From NCBI GenBank assembly GCA_017508105.1, contig JAFVZP010000051.1:1-34877 (forward strand): a stretch of 34,877 nucleotides of DNA. Reading direction: 5' to 3'. Source of the stretch: Clostridia bacterium (GTDB taxonomy: Bacteria > Bacillota > Clostridia > Christensenellales > Borkfalkiaceae). The notes under the pieces are model-generated. The model had not been told where the DNA came from. It ran no database searches and was given only the letters and a program-made list of their open reading frames with translations. Shown piece after piece: positions 19,893 to 34,877 of the stretch (its first letter is position 1; each line of letters starts with the position of its first letter). The position numbers and the translations under genes are program-made.

Positions 19893-20024
19893 ACCTTTCA
19901 AAGAGAATAATGCGCCATTTGTATTTTTCTTTTCTCTTTTTAAGGCGAATTATTGAGATTTTTCTTTATACAAAATGCGACCCATAACTACAAAACGGGT
20001 CAATTTTCTTTGCTTTTGCTCCGC

Positions 20025-20030
20025 TATACT
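20025..20030 (+). promoter_or_regulatory. Possible -10 box for spoIIGA
   Basis: TATACT lies 19 bases before the GTG start at 20050, giving a very short leader with GGGG as ribosome site. No -35 at the usual distance is seen. In B. subtilis this promoter has an abnormally long spacer and depends on Spo0A, so a poor -35 is not surprising. No clear 0A box was found between 19893 and 20024. Confidence 0.3.
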
Positions 20031-20049
20031 TTTTCCCGGGGAAGAGAGA

Positions 20050-20868
20050 GTGGAAGTTTATATCGAATACGCCATCGTGGAAAATTTCATATTGGACGGA
20101 CTTTTGTTATACCTTTCCTTTAAAACCGTCCGTCTGCCTATATCCAAACCTCGTTTGCTGCTGGCGGCGTTGCTCGGCTCTGTATTCGCCGTTTTGTTTC
20201 CGCTTTTACCCCTGAGCGATGGGTACGCCTTTGCCGTCAAATATCTCTTCGGCGGTATTTTATGTTTGACGGCGGTCTCCAAACAGATAAAAAACGCCTT
20301 GCTTATCCTACCGTTTTTTTATCTGTATACCTTTGCGCTTGGCGGCTTACTCTTGGGCATGGATAGCTTCTTTCTCCAAAACGAGATGGAAAACGGCAAC
20401 TATATTTTGCGCCAAACGCCTGCCTTCACCGTGCTGATATCCGCGCTGGTTTTCGGGATCGCTTGCGTCAAGCTTATTTCCTCGCTCTACCGCCGTTACC
20501 GCAATAAAAAATTATTGTATTCGTGTAAAATCACCTTCAAAGGCATGCAGGTCGAGGGGATCGGACTGCTGGATACGGGCAATTCGCTCACCTTTCACGG
20601 CTCTCCCGTCTGCCTCATTGATAAGAGTCTTTCTAAAAGCTTACTCAATGAAGAAAACTCAAAAGACGTTCCTTTGGAGCGCATGTACGTACATACCGCC
20701 ACGGGCGGAGGAGAACTGAAAATTTTTCAGGCGACGATACAGATATATTCGGAAAACCGGGAGAATATAATAGAGAATGTCTATTTGGCTCTTTCGCCCG
20801 TTGCTTTGGGGAAGGGCTATCAAATTATTCTGCAACCGCAGATATTCAGGGAGGAACAAAGTGTTTAA
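20050..20868 (+). CDS. spoIIGA: SpoIIGA, pro-SigE processing protease
   Basis: Membrane-bound aspartic-type protease that cleaves the pro-sequence from SigE in the mother cell after a forespore signal (SpoIIR). The 272-residue protein has about five hydrophobic spans in its first 150 residues, then a soluble part with the catalytic motif D-T-G-N at 175-178, as in the family. The GTG at 20050 is chosen because GGGG lies about seven bases upstream and the sequence V-E-V-Y-I-E-Y-A-I aligns with the family N-terminus; an upstream ATG at 19975 would add 25 non-conserved residues. It overlaps sigE by eight bases. Confidence 0.93.
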
Positions 20869-21601
20869 ACAACTACTCATAAAATTGACTGACTTATGGA
20901 AAAAACTTCTTCCGCAGCGACAGGCGTTGAGGGAAGAAGAGAACAACGTCATTCACTACATCTGCGGGAGCGAGGCATTGCCCCTGCCCTTCAATGCCGA
21001 GGAGGAGGGGGAGCTGTTGGAAAAATTAAACAACGCTCAGGACGTGGAGCGCATCCGTGCCAGTCTCATTGAACACAATCTTCGCTTGGTGGTGTATATC
21101 GCCCGAAAATTCGACAATACGGGGGTAGACGCCGAGGATTTAATTTCCATCGGCACCTTGGGGCTCATCAAGGCCATCAATTCCTATCGCCTGGAAAAGA
21201 ATATCAAGCTGGCGACCTACGCCTCTCGCTGTATTGAAAATGAAATTTTAATGTATTTGCGCCGCAGCGTGCGATTGAAGGCCGAGGTGTCCTTTGACGA
21301 ACCGCTCAACACCGACTTTGACGGCAACGAACTGTTGCTTTCGGACGTATTGGGTACGGATACCGACGCCGTCTACGGAAAGGTCGAGCACAACGTCGAA
21401 CGGGAGCTGTTGAAAGAGGCGGTGGAAAAGCTGCCCGAACGGGAGAAAAAAATAATCTATCTTCGCTTCGGCTTGAACGGCAAAGAGGAGCTCACGCAAA
21501 AAGAAGTGGCAGACCTGTTGGGTATTTCCCAAAGCTACATATCCCGCTTGGAAAAGAAAATCATCGACCGATTGAAGGTTGAAATTAAAAAAATGGAATA
21601 G
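20861..21601 (+). CDS. sigE: RNA polymerase sigma factor SigE precursor
   Basis: Early mother-cell sporulation sigma factor, 246 residues. The first 30 or so residues form a basic, amphipathic pro-sequence. The likely cleavage lies before the G-S-E-A-L-P motif (residues 36-41), by alignment with B. subtilis. Regions 2 and 4 are very conserved, for example [28 protein letters not shown], and the C-terminal [10 protein letters not shown] recognition helix. The GTG start at 20861 has AGGGAGGA upstream and overlaps the spoIIGA end, which is the usual coupled arrangement. Confidence 0.97.
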
Positions 21602-21627
21602 AGTAAAGAGTAAAACAAAAAAAATTT

Positions 21628-21637
21628 GCGCATACTG
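21628..21637 (+). promoter_or_regulatory. Possible SigF/SigG -10 element before sigG
   Basis: GCGCATACTG fits the SigF pattern GGnnAnAnTR with one mismatch and the SigG pattern CATnnTA with one mismatch. A -35 is poor (GAGTA at 21608-21612). Transcription from it would start near 21644. Confidence 0.35.
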
Positions 21638-21673
21638 ACAGTGCCTCCAAACTGTGGATACATACGGGAGGTA
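21638..21673 (+). promoter_or_regulatory. Leader fold that can hide the sigG ribosome site
   Basis: ACAGT (21638-21642) pairs with ACTGT (21651-21655) around an eight-base loop that contains CCTCC (21644-21648). That CCTCC is complementary to the GGAGG of the sigG ribosome site (21667-21671), and the pairing extends to seven bases (TGCCTCC with GGAGGTA). The combination would be either an H-type pseudoknot or two competing stems. Both block ribosome binding. Confidence 0.55.
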
Positions 21674-21680
21674 AAAAAGT

Positions 21681-22457
21681 ATGATGCAAAAGGTAGAAAT
21701 TTGCGGTGTACAGACGTCGGGCTTGCCCCTGCTCTCCGCCGAGGAGAACGAATCGCTCATTCTTCTCTTAAAACAGGGAGATGCGGCAGCGCGTGAGAAA
21801 TTCATCGTGGGCAATATGCGGTTGGTGCTGTCCCTGGTCAAGCGCTTCTGGTCCAAGAACGCCAACGCCGACGACGTATTTCAGGCGGGCTGCATCGGCT
21901 TAATCAAAGCCATCGACAATTTTGACGTGAGCGTGGGGGTAAAGTTTTCCACCTACGCCGTACCCATGATTTTGGGGGAAATTAAGCGCTATTTAAGGGA
22001 TGGCAACTCTCTAAGAGTCAGTCGCAGCATTCGGGATACGGCGTATAAAGTGTTGAAGGTGCGGGAAAAGCTTGAAGAGCAGTCCCAAGAATCCAGCATC
22101 GAAAATATCGCCAAGGAAATGAACGTTGCGGTCAAAGAGGTGGTCTATGCGTTGGATGCAATTTCCGACCCCGTTTCACTGTACGAGCCCGTCTATAATA
22201 AATCGGGCGACGCGCTTTTGCTGATGGACCAAATTTACGATGAAAAGAACAACGACGAAATCTGGACCGAGCACGTTGCGTTGGGAGAAGCCATGAATCA
22301 ACTGCAGGAGCGTGAGAAAAAAATTCTCTTTTTGCGCTATTACGAAGGTAAGACCCAGACCGAAATATCCGAAGAAGTGGGAATTTCCCAAGCGCAGGTT
22401 TCCCGATTGGAGAAGAGCGCCATTCAATCCATTCGCTGTAATATTGCGGCGGAATAA
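21681..22457 (+). CDS. sigG: RNA polymerase sigma factor SigG
   Basis: Late forespore sigma factor, 258 residues. It begins with the family signature K-V-E-I-C-G-V-x-T-S-x-L-P and has F-S-T-Y-A-V-P-M-I-L-G-E-I-K-R-Y-L-R-D in region 2. The recognition helix region reads G-I-S-Q-A-Q-V-S-R-L-E-K. The N-terminal V-E-I-C-G tag separates it from SigF. It follows sigE by 79 bases, the order spoIIGA-sigE-sigG found in most spore formers. Two ATG codons occur in a row (21681 and 21684), with GGGAGG nine bases before the first. Regulation appears to involve both a weak forespore promoter and leader folding. Confidence 0.96.
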   Translation: MMQKVEICGVQTSGLPLLSAEENESLILLLKQGDAAAREKFIVGNMRLVLSLVKRFWSKNANADDVFQAGCIGLIKAIDNFDVSVGVKFSTYAVPMILGEIKRYLRDGNSLRVSRSIRDTAYKVLKVREKLEEQSQESSIENIAKEMNVAVKEVVYALDAISDPVSLYEPVYNKSGDALLLMDQIYDEKNNDEIWTEHVALGEAMNQLQEREKKILFLRYYEGKTQTEISEEVGISQAQVSRLEKSAIQSIRCNIAAE

Positions 22458-30220: not shown

Positions 30221-32848
30221 ATGGATATGCAAAAGACGTACGCTCCCAAGGAGTTTGAGGATAGAATTTATCAGGATTGGGAACAAAAGGGCTATTTCCG
30301 TGCGGAAATCGACCCTAAAAAGGTTCCCTTCACTATCGTAATGCCTCCTCCCAACATCACGGGACAGCTGCATATGGGTCACGCTATGGACGCCACCTTG
30401 CAGGACACTCTCATTCGCTTCAAGCGCATGCAGGGGTATTCTGCCCTTTGGCTGCCCGGTTGCGACCACGCTTCCATCGCCACCGAAGTTAAAATTGTTG
30501 AAAAAATCCGCAAGGAAGAGGGCAAGGAAAAAACCGACCTCGGCAGAGAGGAGTTTTTACGCCGCGCTTGGGCTTGGAAGGAGCAGTACGGCAACCGCAT
30601 CATGCAGCAGCAACGCAAGATGGGCAGCAGCTGCGATTGGTCCCGTCAGGCCTTCACCATGGACGAACGCTGCTCCAAAGCCGTCCGTGAGGTATTCGTC
30701 AATCTCTACGATAAAGGTTTAATCTATCAGGGCAGCCGCATCATCAACTGGTGTCCCTGCTGTAAAACCGCGCTCTCGGACGCCGAAGTGGAATACTCCG
30801 AGGATGCAGGTGCTTTTTGGCATATCAAATACCCCGTGCAGGGCTCGGACGAATTTTTAGTCGTCGCCACCACCCGTCCCGAAACCATGCTCGGCGATAC
30901 CGCCGTTGCCGTCAATCCCACGGATGAACGCTATATGCACCTCATCGGCAAAAAAATTCTTTTGCCGCTTGTCAACCGTGAAATTACCATCGTCGGCGAC
31001 GAACACGCCGATAAAGAAGTGGGCACGGGCTGTGTAAAAATCACTCCCGCCCACGACCCTAACGACTTTGAAGTGGGCTTACGCCACAACTTAGAAATTA
31101 TCCGTATCATGAATGACGACGGTACCATGTCCGAGAATACGGGTGTTTACGCAGGGTTGGATAGATACGAAGCACGAAAGAAAATCGTCGCCGATTTAGA
31201 GGCGCAGGGTCTGCTTTTAAAGGTAGAATCCATCACGCACAACGTCGGCCACTGCTACCGCTGTCATACGACGGTAGAGCCCATCGTATCCAAGCAATGG
31301 TTCGTAAAAATGGAGCCCTTGGCAAAGCCCGCCATCGAGGCTGTCAACAAAAATAAAACCAAATTCGTTCCCGAACGCTTCTCCAAGACCTACTATAATT
31401 GGATGGAGAACATTAAGGATTGGTGTATCTCCCGTCAGCTCTGGTGGGGACACCGCATCCCCGTTTGGTACTGCCAAGACTGCGGCAAGGTCATCTGCGC
31501 TAAGGAAGACCCCACCGCTTGCTCTAGCTGCGGCAGTCAAAATCTGCACCAGGACGAGGACGTGCTCGATACCTGGTTCTCCTCGGCACTCTGGCCGTTC
31601 TCCACGCTCGGTTATCCCGATAAGACAGCAGACTTCGATTATTTTTATCCCACCGACGTACTCGTTACCGGTTACGACATCATCTTCTTCTGGGTAGCGA
31701 GAATGATTTTCTCCGCCCTTGAACACACCGGCAAGGTGCCTTTCCACGACGTGCTCATTCACGGCTTGGTAAGGGACGAGCAGGGCAGAAAAATGTCCAA
31801 GTCCCTCGGCAACGGCGTAGACCCGTTGGAGGTCGTCGAAAAATACGGCGCCGACTCTCTGCGTCATTCGCTCTTGATGGGCATTGCGCCGGGCAACGAC
31901 ACCCGTTATTCGGACGCCAAGGTAGAATCCGCGAGAAACTATATCAATAAAATCTGGAACGCATCCCGTTTCGTTATTATGAACGCCGAGGATAAAAAAG
32001 TTCCCAAAATCGAGGACATTAAGCTTTCTGCGGCGGACAAATGGATTATTTCCAAGCTGCAAAATTGCATCAAGGAAGTCACTCTCAACCTCAATAAATA
32101 CGAATTGGGCGTGGCTTGCGACTGTCTGTATTCCTTCGTATGGGACGACTTCTGCGATTGGTATATCGAGCTTTCCAAACCTGCGCTCTACGGCGAGGAC
32201 GAAAACAAGAAGCTCGGCGCCATTGCCGTGCTCTGCTACGTCCTGGAAAACGCTTTGAAGTTACTCCATCCCTTCATTCCCTTCGTCACCGAAGAAATCT
32301 ATCGCAACTTGCCCACCGCGAAAGGCAGCATTATGGTTGCGGACTTCCCCCGTTATAACTCCCGCCGCGCCTATAAAAAGGAAGCCAAGGCGTTTGAAGG
32401 GGTCATGGAAATCATCAAATCGGTGCGCAACATCAAGGCAAACGTAAATTGCCCTGCTTCCAAGAAGGTGGATTTATATATCATCGCGCCCGAATCCAAG
32501 CGCCTCATCAACGCCAATAAAAACAGCATTGTCAAGCTTGCCGGCGCCAACGAAATTATTTTCGTGGACGGTACAGGCGATATGCCCGAAAAAACCGTTT
32601 CGCAAGTCTGTGAAATCTGTCAAATTTACATTCCCTTGGGCGAACTCGTAGACGTGGAAAAAGAACGCGTGAGACTGAGCGGAGAGCTGGAAAAAATCAT
32701 CTTTGAAATTCAGCGCGCCAACGGCAAGCTGTCCAATCAAAACTTCCTTGCCAAAGCTCCCAAGAAATTGGTCGACGACGAGCGTGCAAAACTGGATAAA
32801 TACATCGACATCAAGGAAAAGCTCGAAAAACAGTTACAAGAATTATAA
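30221..32848 (+). CDS. valS: Valyl-tRNA synthetase
   Basis: Class I synthetase that charges tRNA-Val. The 875-residue protein has the H-M-G-H form of the HIGH motif at 51-54 (within P-P-P-N-I-T-G-Q-L) and K-M-S-K-S at 524-528. The editing (CP1) domain contains [12 protein letters not shown]. The C-terminal 65 residues are a Lys/Glu-rich coiled-coil arm typical of ValRS. A zinc-like cysteine set (C-Q-D-C, later C-S-S-C) lies near 419-435. The ribosome site is weak (AAGGCGG, 11 bases before the ATG), but the promoter is strong. Confidence 0.98.
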
Positions 32849-32867
32849 TTGAATACAGTTAAAAAAT

Positions 32868-32904
32868 AAAAGAGTGGACTAAATCAAGTGCACTCTTTTC
32901 TTTT
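32868..32904 (+). terminator. Terminator after valS
   Basis: AAAAGAGTG (32868-32876) and CACTCTTTT (32891-32899) form a perfect nine-base stem around 14 bases, followed by CTTTT. Confidence 0.75.
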
Positions 32905-32965
32905 ATGCTATACACAAAAAATTTTCTCTTACAATATTATAATCAAGTGGGGAGGGGAGAAAAGT

Positions 32966-33637
32966 ATGCAAATCGGATTTATTACGGACGGGAAGTTGGT
33001 TCACTTTCAAAAGCGCAGGGATATTCGCCCCGCCCATCTCTACTGCTTTGCCTTCGGCTCTATCGGCGAGGTCAACTATGAAAAAGAAGTCTGCGGTGAA
33101 AGTGCGGAATTGGAAGAGGTTGCGCTCTTTTCCCGCAATTTCAACTGCACGGTCATCGCAGGCTGTTACACGGACACCAAGGGCATCAAGCGAAAATCCG
33201 CCGTGGTTGCCGAAAAGGGAAAAATCCTCGGCATTTCCGATATGACGACGGGTATTGACGGCGATATCTATAAATGCGGCTCGGGCATTCGGGTGTACGA
33301 TACCTCGGTGGGTAAAATCGGCGTGCTCGTGGGTCAGGATATTTATTTTCCCGAGCTCTTCAAAAGCCTGGCGCAGTGCGGCAGCGAGCAAATCGTCTGT
33401 CTGTACGAATCCGTCGGCGATTCTCTCGAACAAATCCTATTGCGCGCCAACGCCTTTTGCTACGGTGTACCCATCTGTATGTGTGCGCATGGCTATGTCC
33501 AAATCGCCGACGTCAGCGGAAAAATTGCCTACGCCACGCCGCTTTCTCCGAGTTATTTCAACGCCGAGCCCTTCAAGGAGTACCATTTAATCGAAACCAG
33601 ACTGCGCGGCTTTCATAAACCACAGGAAATTTTTTAG
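32966..33637 (+). CDS. Nitrilase-fold protein lacking the catalytic triad
   Basis: A 223-residue protein aligning with the carbon-nitrogen hydrolase superfamily: V-G-K-I-G-V-L-V-G-Q-D-I-Y-F-P-E at 115-130 corresponds to the active-site block G-V-x-I-C-Y-D-x-x-F-P-E. The catalytic Cys position is Gly123. The Glu block that normally ends in P-E is F-A-F-G-S-I-G near 28-34, and the Y-R-K-x-H-L block with the catalytic Lys is I-S-D-M-T near 90-94. It is thus probably not an amidase. The ATG at 32966 has GGAGGGGAG upstream; an earlier GTG would run through that site. It lies directly upstream of spo0A, with its own terminator. Confidence 0.75.
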   Translation: MQIGFITDGKLVHFQKRRDIRPAHLYCFAFGSIGEVNYEKEVCGESAELEEVALFSRNFNCTVIAGCYTDTKGIKRKSAVVAEKGKILGISDMTTGIDGDIYKCGSGIRVYDTSVGKIGVLVGQDIYFPELFKSLAQCGSEQIVCLYESVGDSLEQILLRANAFCYGVPICMCAHGYVQIADVSGKIAYATPLSPSYFNAEPFKEYHLIETRLRGFHKPQEIF

Positions 33638-33667
33638 AAAAAGGGAGTCGTTTCACTCCCTTTTTCT
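33636..33667 (+). terminator. Terminator after the nitrilase-fold gene
   Basis: AGAAAAAGGGAGT and ACTCCCTTTTTCT form a perfect 13-base stem with a six-base loop. The stem begins inside the stop codon of the preceding gene. Confidence 0.9.
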
Positions 33668-33692
33668 GTACTCATCGGACTATTTTACAAAA

Positions 33693-33700
33693 TTCGACAA
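33693..33700 (+). promoter_or_regulatory. Spo0A (0A) box upstream of spo0A
   Basis: TTCGACAA, which is TTGTCGAA on the other strand, matches the Spo0A-binding consensus completely. It lies 48 bases before the -35 box of the spo0A promoter, a position suited to self-regulation. Confidence 0.6.
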
Positions 33701-33740
33701 ATTAATTTAAAATAATACCCTATATTTTATAAAATAATGC

Positions 33741-33769
33741 TTTACTTTTGTAAAATAATGTATTATAAT
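33741..33769 (+). promoter_or_regulatory. Sigma-A-like promoter for spo0A
   Basis: TTTACT (33741-33746), 17-base spacer, perfect TATAAT (33764-33769), 33 bases before the start codon. No SigH-type promoter was recognised. Confidence 0.65.
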
Positions 33770-33802
33770 GGAAATACAATAAACGATACGAGGAGATAAT
33801 GT

Positions 33803-34567
33803 ATGAAAAGCAAGAAAATTGTTATTCTGGAAAACAACGAAGAATTGAAGTGCAAGCTGGTGGAGGTCTTTCAAAAGGGCGGGCACAACGTGTGTGGTGT
33901 CAGTGACGACGGCGCCGAGGGGCTGCAGATGATTGAAAGCTTGCGCCCCGACTTGGTGATATGCGAGCTGTTTTTGAAGAACGTTGACGGTATCGGCATT
34001 CTGGAAGCATTGAAAGGGTCGCAAACCATGTGCATCATGATTGTCGCCAGCGCAGACGACCGTTTAATCGAACGGATTATGTCCAAGGGCGCAAAGTACT
34101 GTCTGTTCAAGCCCTTCTCGCCCGAGATGGCGCTGCAACGGGTGGACGAGCTGTTCTCGTTTGAAAATTCCGTCAAGGTAGAGGGGATAAGGGATACCGT
34201 CTACACCAAACGCGGAGCGACGTTGGAGGAGAAAATCAGCAATATTTTTATATCCATCGGCATACCGCCGCACATCAAAGGGTATAATTATTTACGGGAA
34301 GGCATTAAAATGGCGGTGGAACGTCCCGACATCATCAACAACATCACAAAGGTGTTGTATCCGCAAATCGGTGAAAAGTATTCTACCACGGCAAGCAAGG
34401 TCGAGCGCGCCATTCGCCACGCCATTGAAGTGGCTTGGAATAGGGGACGCATTGAAGTCATCAACGCTATTTTCGGCGCAAGGGTATATATCGGCAGTGA
34501 AAAACCCACCAACAGCGAATTTATTGCCTTGGTGGCAGACAAGCTCATTTTGGAAACTATGGTGTAA
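33803..34567 (+). CDS. spo0A: Spo0A, sporulation master regulator, atypical receiver
   Basis: Response regulator that starts sporulation, 254 residues. The C-terminal DNA-binding domain (about 140-254) is nearly identical to the family, including H-I-K-G-Y, I-T-K-V-L-Y-P, and the recognition helix [18 protein letters not shown]. The receiver (1-120) is divergent. The phospho-acceptor Asp56 of B. subtilis is Glu55 (codon GAG, 33965-33967). The acidic pair Asp10-Asp11 is Glu10-Asn11, and the conserved Thr is Val81. Lys103 in F-K-P-F remains. Classical phosphorylation looks doubtful, while DNA binding should be intact. GAGGAGA is the ribosome site. A terminator follows. Confidence 0.95.
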
Positions 34568-34590
34568 GTTCAATCATTTTTTTCTCTTAA

Positions 34591-34627
34591 AAAACGGAGG
34601 TAGCGCAGTTTGCAACCTCCGTTTTTG
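34591..34627. terminator. Terminator after spo0A, probably bidirectional
   Basis: AAAACGGAGGT and ACCTCCGTTTT form a perfect 11-base stem, flanked by A on the left and T on the right. It can also end transcripts coming from the minus-strand genes beyond. Confidence 0.85.
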
Positions 34628-34629
34628 TT

Positions 34630-34788
34630 TTACTGTCTGCTGCGTTTGCGCCAGTCGAAAAATCCGTACAAATCGTTGCATAAAAAAGCGCAGTAGCTGA
34701 TAATACTCGGCAAAAGCCCCGCGCCTTTGAATAGCGCCAACGACCAAAGTACAATTAAAATAATATCGTTTAAAATGTAAAATACAGT
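34630..34788 (-). pseudogene. Small membrane-protein ORF without a usable start
   Basis: An open frame of 52 codons on the minus strand reads about N-D-I-I-L-I-V-L-W-S-L-A-L-F-K-G-A-G-L-L-P, then a second hydrophobic stretch, ending C-N-D-L-Y-G-F-F-D-W-R-K-R-S-R-Q. It looks like a sensible protein: two short spans and a basic tail. The frame has no ATG or GTG in its N-terminal part, and no ribosome site. Only an internal TTG exists, after the first hydrophobic residues. It may have lost its start, use a rare start such as ATT, or contain an error. I do not recognise the family. Confidence 0.35.
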
Positions 34789-34814
34789 TTATTTAAATTG
34801 ATTTAGTTTTCAGT

Positions 34815-34877
34815 TTAATATACGGTTTTGCCGTAACAGTCCATCGCCACGACGACGGGGAAATCCACCACTTCCAA
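34815..34877 (-). CDS. Class I fumarate hydratase beta subunit, C-terminal end (partial)
   Basis: The minus strand from the window edge reads L-E-V-V-D-F-P-V-V-V-A-M-D-C-Y-G-K-T-V-Y and then stops. This matches the C-terminus of the beta subunit (TtdB/FumB-like) of iron-sulfur fumarase or tartrate dehydratase, where V-x-D-F-P-x-x-V-x-x-D is usual. Only 20 codons are seen, so the choice between fumarase and tartrate dehydratase cannot be made. The gene start and probably the alpha subunit lie to the right of the window. Confidence 0.65.
   Translation of the reverse strand: MEVVDFPVVVAMDCYGKTVY

Follow-up and report, generated by a model that had tools for sequence, protein, structure and literature searches.

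The window studied here (the whole stretch of DNA analyzed, 34,877 nucleotides, on contig 26 in a draft assembly totaling 1.16 Mb) carries, immediately before spo0A, a gene for a nitrilase-like protein, hereafter NIT. The question raised by this locus is whether NIT serves the Spo0A encoded next to it, as a preliminary description proposed when it cast the protein as a catalytically dead, ligand-binding controller of Spo0A. The analysis makes it probable that NIT is a dead nitrilase fold held under selection, with no conserved link to Spo0A. The features of the locus are as follows.

30221..32848, + strand: valS, upstream neighbor of NIT (sequence reading, neighborhood)
32863..32904, + strand: terminator-like hairpin between valS and NIT, with A-rich and U-rich arms (folding, z -5.7)
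32966..33637, + strand: NIT pseudo-nitrilase ORF, including the stop (ORF reading, PF00795, AlphaFold2 model, structure alignment)
33635..33668, + strand: terminator-like hairpin directly after NIT, separating it from spo0A (folding, -19.3 kcal/mol, z -5.8)
33803..34567, + strand: spo0A, a neighbor that forms no conserved unit with NIT (TIGR02875, E = 4e-69)

Results

NIT retains the nitrilase fold

The NIT reading frame runs on the + strand from an ATG at 32966, preceded by a G-rich, ribosome-binding-like stretch (GGGGAGGGG), to a TAG stop at 33637, and encodes 223 amino acids. The product matches PF00795 (CN_hydrolase) with E = 3.4e-8 and 33.6 bits, above the cut-off of 23.2, and a match to the same family was found in 26 of the 30 NIT homologues checked. 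An AlphaFold2 model built from a 52-sequence alignment (pLDDT 88, pTM 0.86) was used as a Foldseek query, and the top 50 hits were all nitrilase-superfamily structures; alignment of the model to the PH0642 amidase (1j31) with VIA-align gave a Z of 24.8 over 213 residues at an rmsd of 2.8. These structural comparisons indicate that the fold of NIT is the nitrilase fold, shortened by ~40 residues. As modeled, NIT thus has the alpha-beta-beta-alpha (PF00795) architecture of the nitrilase superfamily, and the retained fold pattern noted in the preliminary description is borne out, as is the quoted nitrilase-like motif, which occupies residues 119-130 (GVLVGQDIYFPE). A single other PF00795 protein was found in the genome (G000:C15), part of a 640-aa frame and, by its size, a NadE.

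The catalytic residues are replaced throughout the homologues

Catalytic sites were mapped by profile-profile alignment of NIT against catalytic nitrilases from related genomes. The codons discussed are listed below, with their conservation among 120 homologues.

33053..33055, + strand: codon F30, aligned with the catalytic Glu; Phe in 105/120
33239..33241, + strand: codon D92, not a nitrilase catalytic residue; invariant, 120/120
33242..33244, + strand: codon M93, aligned with the catalytic Lys; Met in 99/120
33332..33334, + strand: codon G123, position of the nucleophilic Cys; Ala in 69, Gly in 31, Asp in 7, Ser in 6, Cys never
33338..33340, + strand: codon D125, matching Asp in the C-x-D motif of nitrilases; invariant, 120/120

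Where the catalytic nitrilases read LFPE, YRKAH, and ICWD at the Glu, Lys, and Cys sites, NIT reads CFAF, SDMTT, and VGQD, whereas all 30 comparator nitrilases from Clostridia carry E, K, and C there (counted by eye). The nucleophilic Cys is therefore missing from NIT (Gly123) and from every one of the 120 homologues, in 100 of which the site is Ala or Gly; the general-base Glu and the triad Lys are missing too, with Phe30 and Met93 in their places. The region of the second Glu, between the Lys and Cys sites, is shortened and gapped in the NIT profile alignment. Both substitutions first read from the single sequence, Gly for the nucleophile and the exchanged Glu and Lys blocks, thus hold at the aligned sites. 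With Phe, Met, and Ala/Gly at these sites across the homologues, no strictly conserved Lys column, and the purifying selection described below, the earlier suggestion of a catalytically dead protein that keeps its fold is well supported.

Other positions are conserved. D92 and D125 aside, E41 is kept in 118 of the 120 homologues, S56, S78, and G85 are near-invariant, and Y38 is among the invariant or nearly invariant residues. Cysteines recur at positions 67 (99/120), 138 (101/120), and 145 (91/120). These columns could suggest that NIT is an enzyme whose active site was re-invented around another Cys (67, 138, or 145, each conserved in 76-84%) or around the invariant or nearly invariant acidic residues D92, D125, and E41. 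A new active site made from E41, D92, and D125 is conceivable. Several observations weaken the idea: no Lys column is strictly conserved among the 120 homologues (K117 is either K or R), the cysteines are absent from diverged members that keep the gene order, no metal-ligand motif was seen in NIT, and D125, like R160, is an ordinary fold residue of nitrilases. We consider a re-invented site improbable. A relocated Cys-Glu-Lys triad, for example through Cys67 or Cys145, was judged unlikely from residue conservation, because no strictly conserved Lys is available to complete it.

NIT is widespread and under purifying selection

A scan of genome contigs with the single protein returned no relatives, and the homologues were recovered with an alignment of the closer rows. 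NIT orthologues are present in 36 of the 37 genomes sampled from its family, a group of uncultured gut Clostridia, and in 42 of 61 relatives once one genome whose match is a true nitrilase was left out; beyond that family, this first sample also had NIT-bearing genomes from six more families of the order. The larger sample of the order has NIT in 50 of 248 genomes, spread over nine families. Pairwise NG86 dN/dS between relatives ranged from 0.05 to 0.14 (nine pairs, eight giving values), figures that are rough because synonymous sites are nearly saturated. NIT is under purifying selection.

The loss of the catalytic residues could by itself describe a nitrilase gene decaying toward loss, and no NIT copy was detected in the congener G003, whose genome is 91% complete. 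Set against this are the low dN/dS, near-universal presence in the family, the invariant new residues, and retention of the gene after relocation (see below), which together make decay hardly credible. NIT is not a decaying gene; near-universal retention in the family despite loss of the triad marks it as a real pseudo-enzyme.

Adjacency to spo0A is confined to one genome

The interval between NIT and spo0A is 165 bp, and the second of the two strong hairpins that flank NIT separates the genes. A simple consensus terminator scan of 32700-34877 reported no sites despite these hairpins being strong by folding; its rules probably overlook hairpins of this kind, whose U-run is part of the stem. 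With a hairpin on either side, NIT is probably transcribed alone, and its cotranscription with spo0A is unlikely.

When two whole-genome searches were compared, NIT lay beside spo0A in this genome only. In congeners whose NIT is 66-71% identical, no valS or spo0A lies within 1.5 kb of the gene, and the spo0A loci, read directly in congeners and in other relatives, showed varied neighbors. The preliminary description had NIT standing where spoIVB precedes spo0A, and of this the position holds, as NIT is indeed the preceding gene. It is no simple replacement of spoIVB, because another family of the order keeps the spoIVB-spo0A pair and because the neighbors of spo0A vary within the family of NIT itself. 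The neighbors read in family members include ABC-F, gltA-like, and gatB genes among others, and the spoIVB motif GMSGSP was not seen beside spo0A in the family members read. In that other family of the order, the spoIVB-spo0A pair was found intact (G037).

The Spo0A of the window is atypical at its phosphorylation site, as had been suspected, with EN as the acidic pair and Glu in place of Asp56. The alteration is not particular to the locus. The phospho-Asp is absent from 28 of the 34 Spo0A proteins read in the family (that of the window included), the substitutes being E, S, G, N, or A, and is kept in 16 of 17 read outside the family. Erosion of the site is a separate, family-wide trait. Most Spo0A proteins of the family were also seen to be without the full acidic pair and to keep the DNA-binding domain.

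These counts bear directly on the proposal of NIT as a regulator dedicated to the adjoining Spo0A, replacing phosphorylation with control by ligand or protein. The two genes do adjoin in the window, NIT is near-universal in a family in which 28 of 34 Spo0A proteins have no phospho-Asp, and the genomes with NIT are nearly all spore formers as judged by SpoIVA (49 of 50, versus 159 of 198 genomes without NIT in the order sample; Fisher p 0.001, a test that ignores kinship and is confounded by descent). However, the adjacency is limited to a single genome, a hairpin separates the genes, and of the 38 NIT-positive genomes read, 10 have a Spo0A that keeps the Asp, 6 in the family and 4 of 5 outside it. 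NIT does not closely track loss of the phospho-Asp; G003, the congener without detected NIT, has an atypical Spo0A as well, and the association follows one clade. Dedicated control of Spo0A is thus very improbable, and a conserved neighborhood with atypical Spo0A, the check suggested for it, was not found. A link of NIT to sporulation in general is compatible with the SpoIVA counts. Elsewhere in the window, at 19975-22457, a spoIIGA-like ORF and two sporulation-type sigma factor ORFs follow one another (read by eye), an arrangement consistent with a spore former of small genome.

The ancestral position of NIT is between dus and trmL

Neighboring genes were named by reading their protein sequences. 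The most widespread arrangement, found in many genera, is spoVT - murJ/spoVB-like - mazG - dus - NIT - trmL. Of 38 loci drawn from many genera, roughly half have NIT next to dus, an adjacency that recurs in four further families, and many have it next to trmL. Where NIT is absent, dus and trmL stand side by side, as seen in three families. In the genome of the window, the dus cluster lies on contig 14, and gyrase genes occupy the expected place of NIT. The ancestral position of NIT is therefore spoVT-murJ/spoVB-mazG-dus-NIT-trmL, and in its own lineage the gene moved recently to the site between valS and spo0A. Relocation without loss of the gene has occurred in several genera, that of the window included. 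Relocated copies were seen near valS, rex, or adhE in several genera, and after valS in the window.

A second pseudo-nitrilase lies upstream of trmL

Another Clostridia family (f73) has, in four genomes, a pseudo-nitrilase of 272-275 aa encoded directly upstream of trmL, which is followed by pgk, tpi, and gpmI. It keeps the catalytic Glu (CFPEMH) and has Met for Lys and Ser for Cys; SpoIVA is present in all four genomes. When NadE and the fast-evolving rows were left out of the tree, the f73 proteins and NIT grouped together against the catalytic nitrilases (92/92); the full tree did not recover this grouping, and an AU test does not reject it (p 0.116). The partial grouping and the shared position at trmL suggest, short of proof, one lineage of stepwise catalytic loss, of which the f73 protein is possibly an earlier stage.

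Discussion

NIT keeps the nitrilase fold but should be incapable of Cys-Glu-Lys amidase chemistry, and it is most likely maintained as a noncatalytic binding or scaffold protein. A partner protein or small ligand could be bound through the former active-site face, for which Y38, E41, S56, S78, D92, and D125 are candidate binding residues. The former pocket is probably hydrophobic now (F30, M93, A/G123), which makes the old nitrilase substrate an unlikely ligand.

The process that NIT serves is far less certain than the dead fold. The best lead is RNA modification or translation upkeep, given dus and trmL, with sporulation second. In its specific form, NIT would aid the tRNA-modification enzymes Dus and/or TrmL as a noncatalytic subunit or substrate sensor. 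The recurrent adjacency to dus (about half of the 38 loci, plus four further families) and to trmL speaks for this, as does the f73 pseudo-nitrilase immediately upstream of trmL in four genomes. However, gene order along trmL-pgk-tpi-gpmI is conserved in its own right, so that NIT may be a mere passenger there, and several lineages, that of the window included, have NIT away from both dus and trmL; the conserved gene order may reflect common descent rather than function. We regard an aid to Dus or TrmL as possible but unlikely in this specific form. A broader speculation, which taken as a whole is quite unlikely to be right, would make NIT one of a line of pseudo-enzymes, so far undescribed, that arose from nitrilases in spore-forming Clostridia. 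Catalysis would have been lost in steps, first through Lys to Met and Cys to Ser or Ala/Gly and later through Glu to Phe, and the protein would now serve for binding within the conserved neighborhood spoVT-mazG-dus-trmL. Such a protein could be a sensor of a metabolite or of tRNA state feeding into sporulation where Spo0A has largely lost its phosphorylation site.

Conserved bacterial nitrilase-fold pseudo-enzymes appear to be little described: our search of the open-access literature found no work on them, which is no proof of absence. The loss of catalytic residues in NIT is defined and family-wide, which makes a noncatalytic role testable. The analysis also removes a misleading lead, as the position of NIT beside spo0A says little about Spo0A, and the family-wide loss of the Spo0A phospho-Asp merits a study of its own.

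Compared with known members of the nitrilase superfamily, such as the PH0642 amidase (1j31) and the N-carbamoylputrescine amidase AguB, NIT has the whole fold in common, is ~40 residues shorter, and shares 16-18% identity. Their Glu, Lys, and Cys correspond to F30, M93, and G123, and a GQDIYFPE block takes the position of their C-x-D block. The glutaminase domain of the NAD+ synthetase NadE is likewise a PF00795 domain but forms a separate branch of the tree (100/100). The f73 pseudo-nitrilase resembles NIT in having Met for Lys within the shared stretch LGVSxM and in having lost the Cys, and it resembles the ancestral-type NIT loci in lying upstream of trmL in SpoIVA-positive genomes; unlike NIT, it is longer (272-275 aa), retains the Glu, and has Ser at the Cys site.
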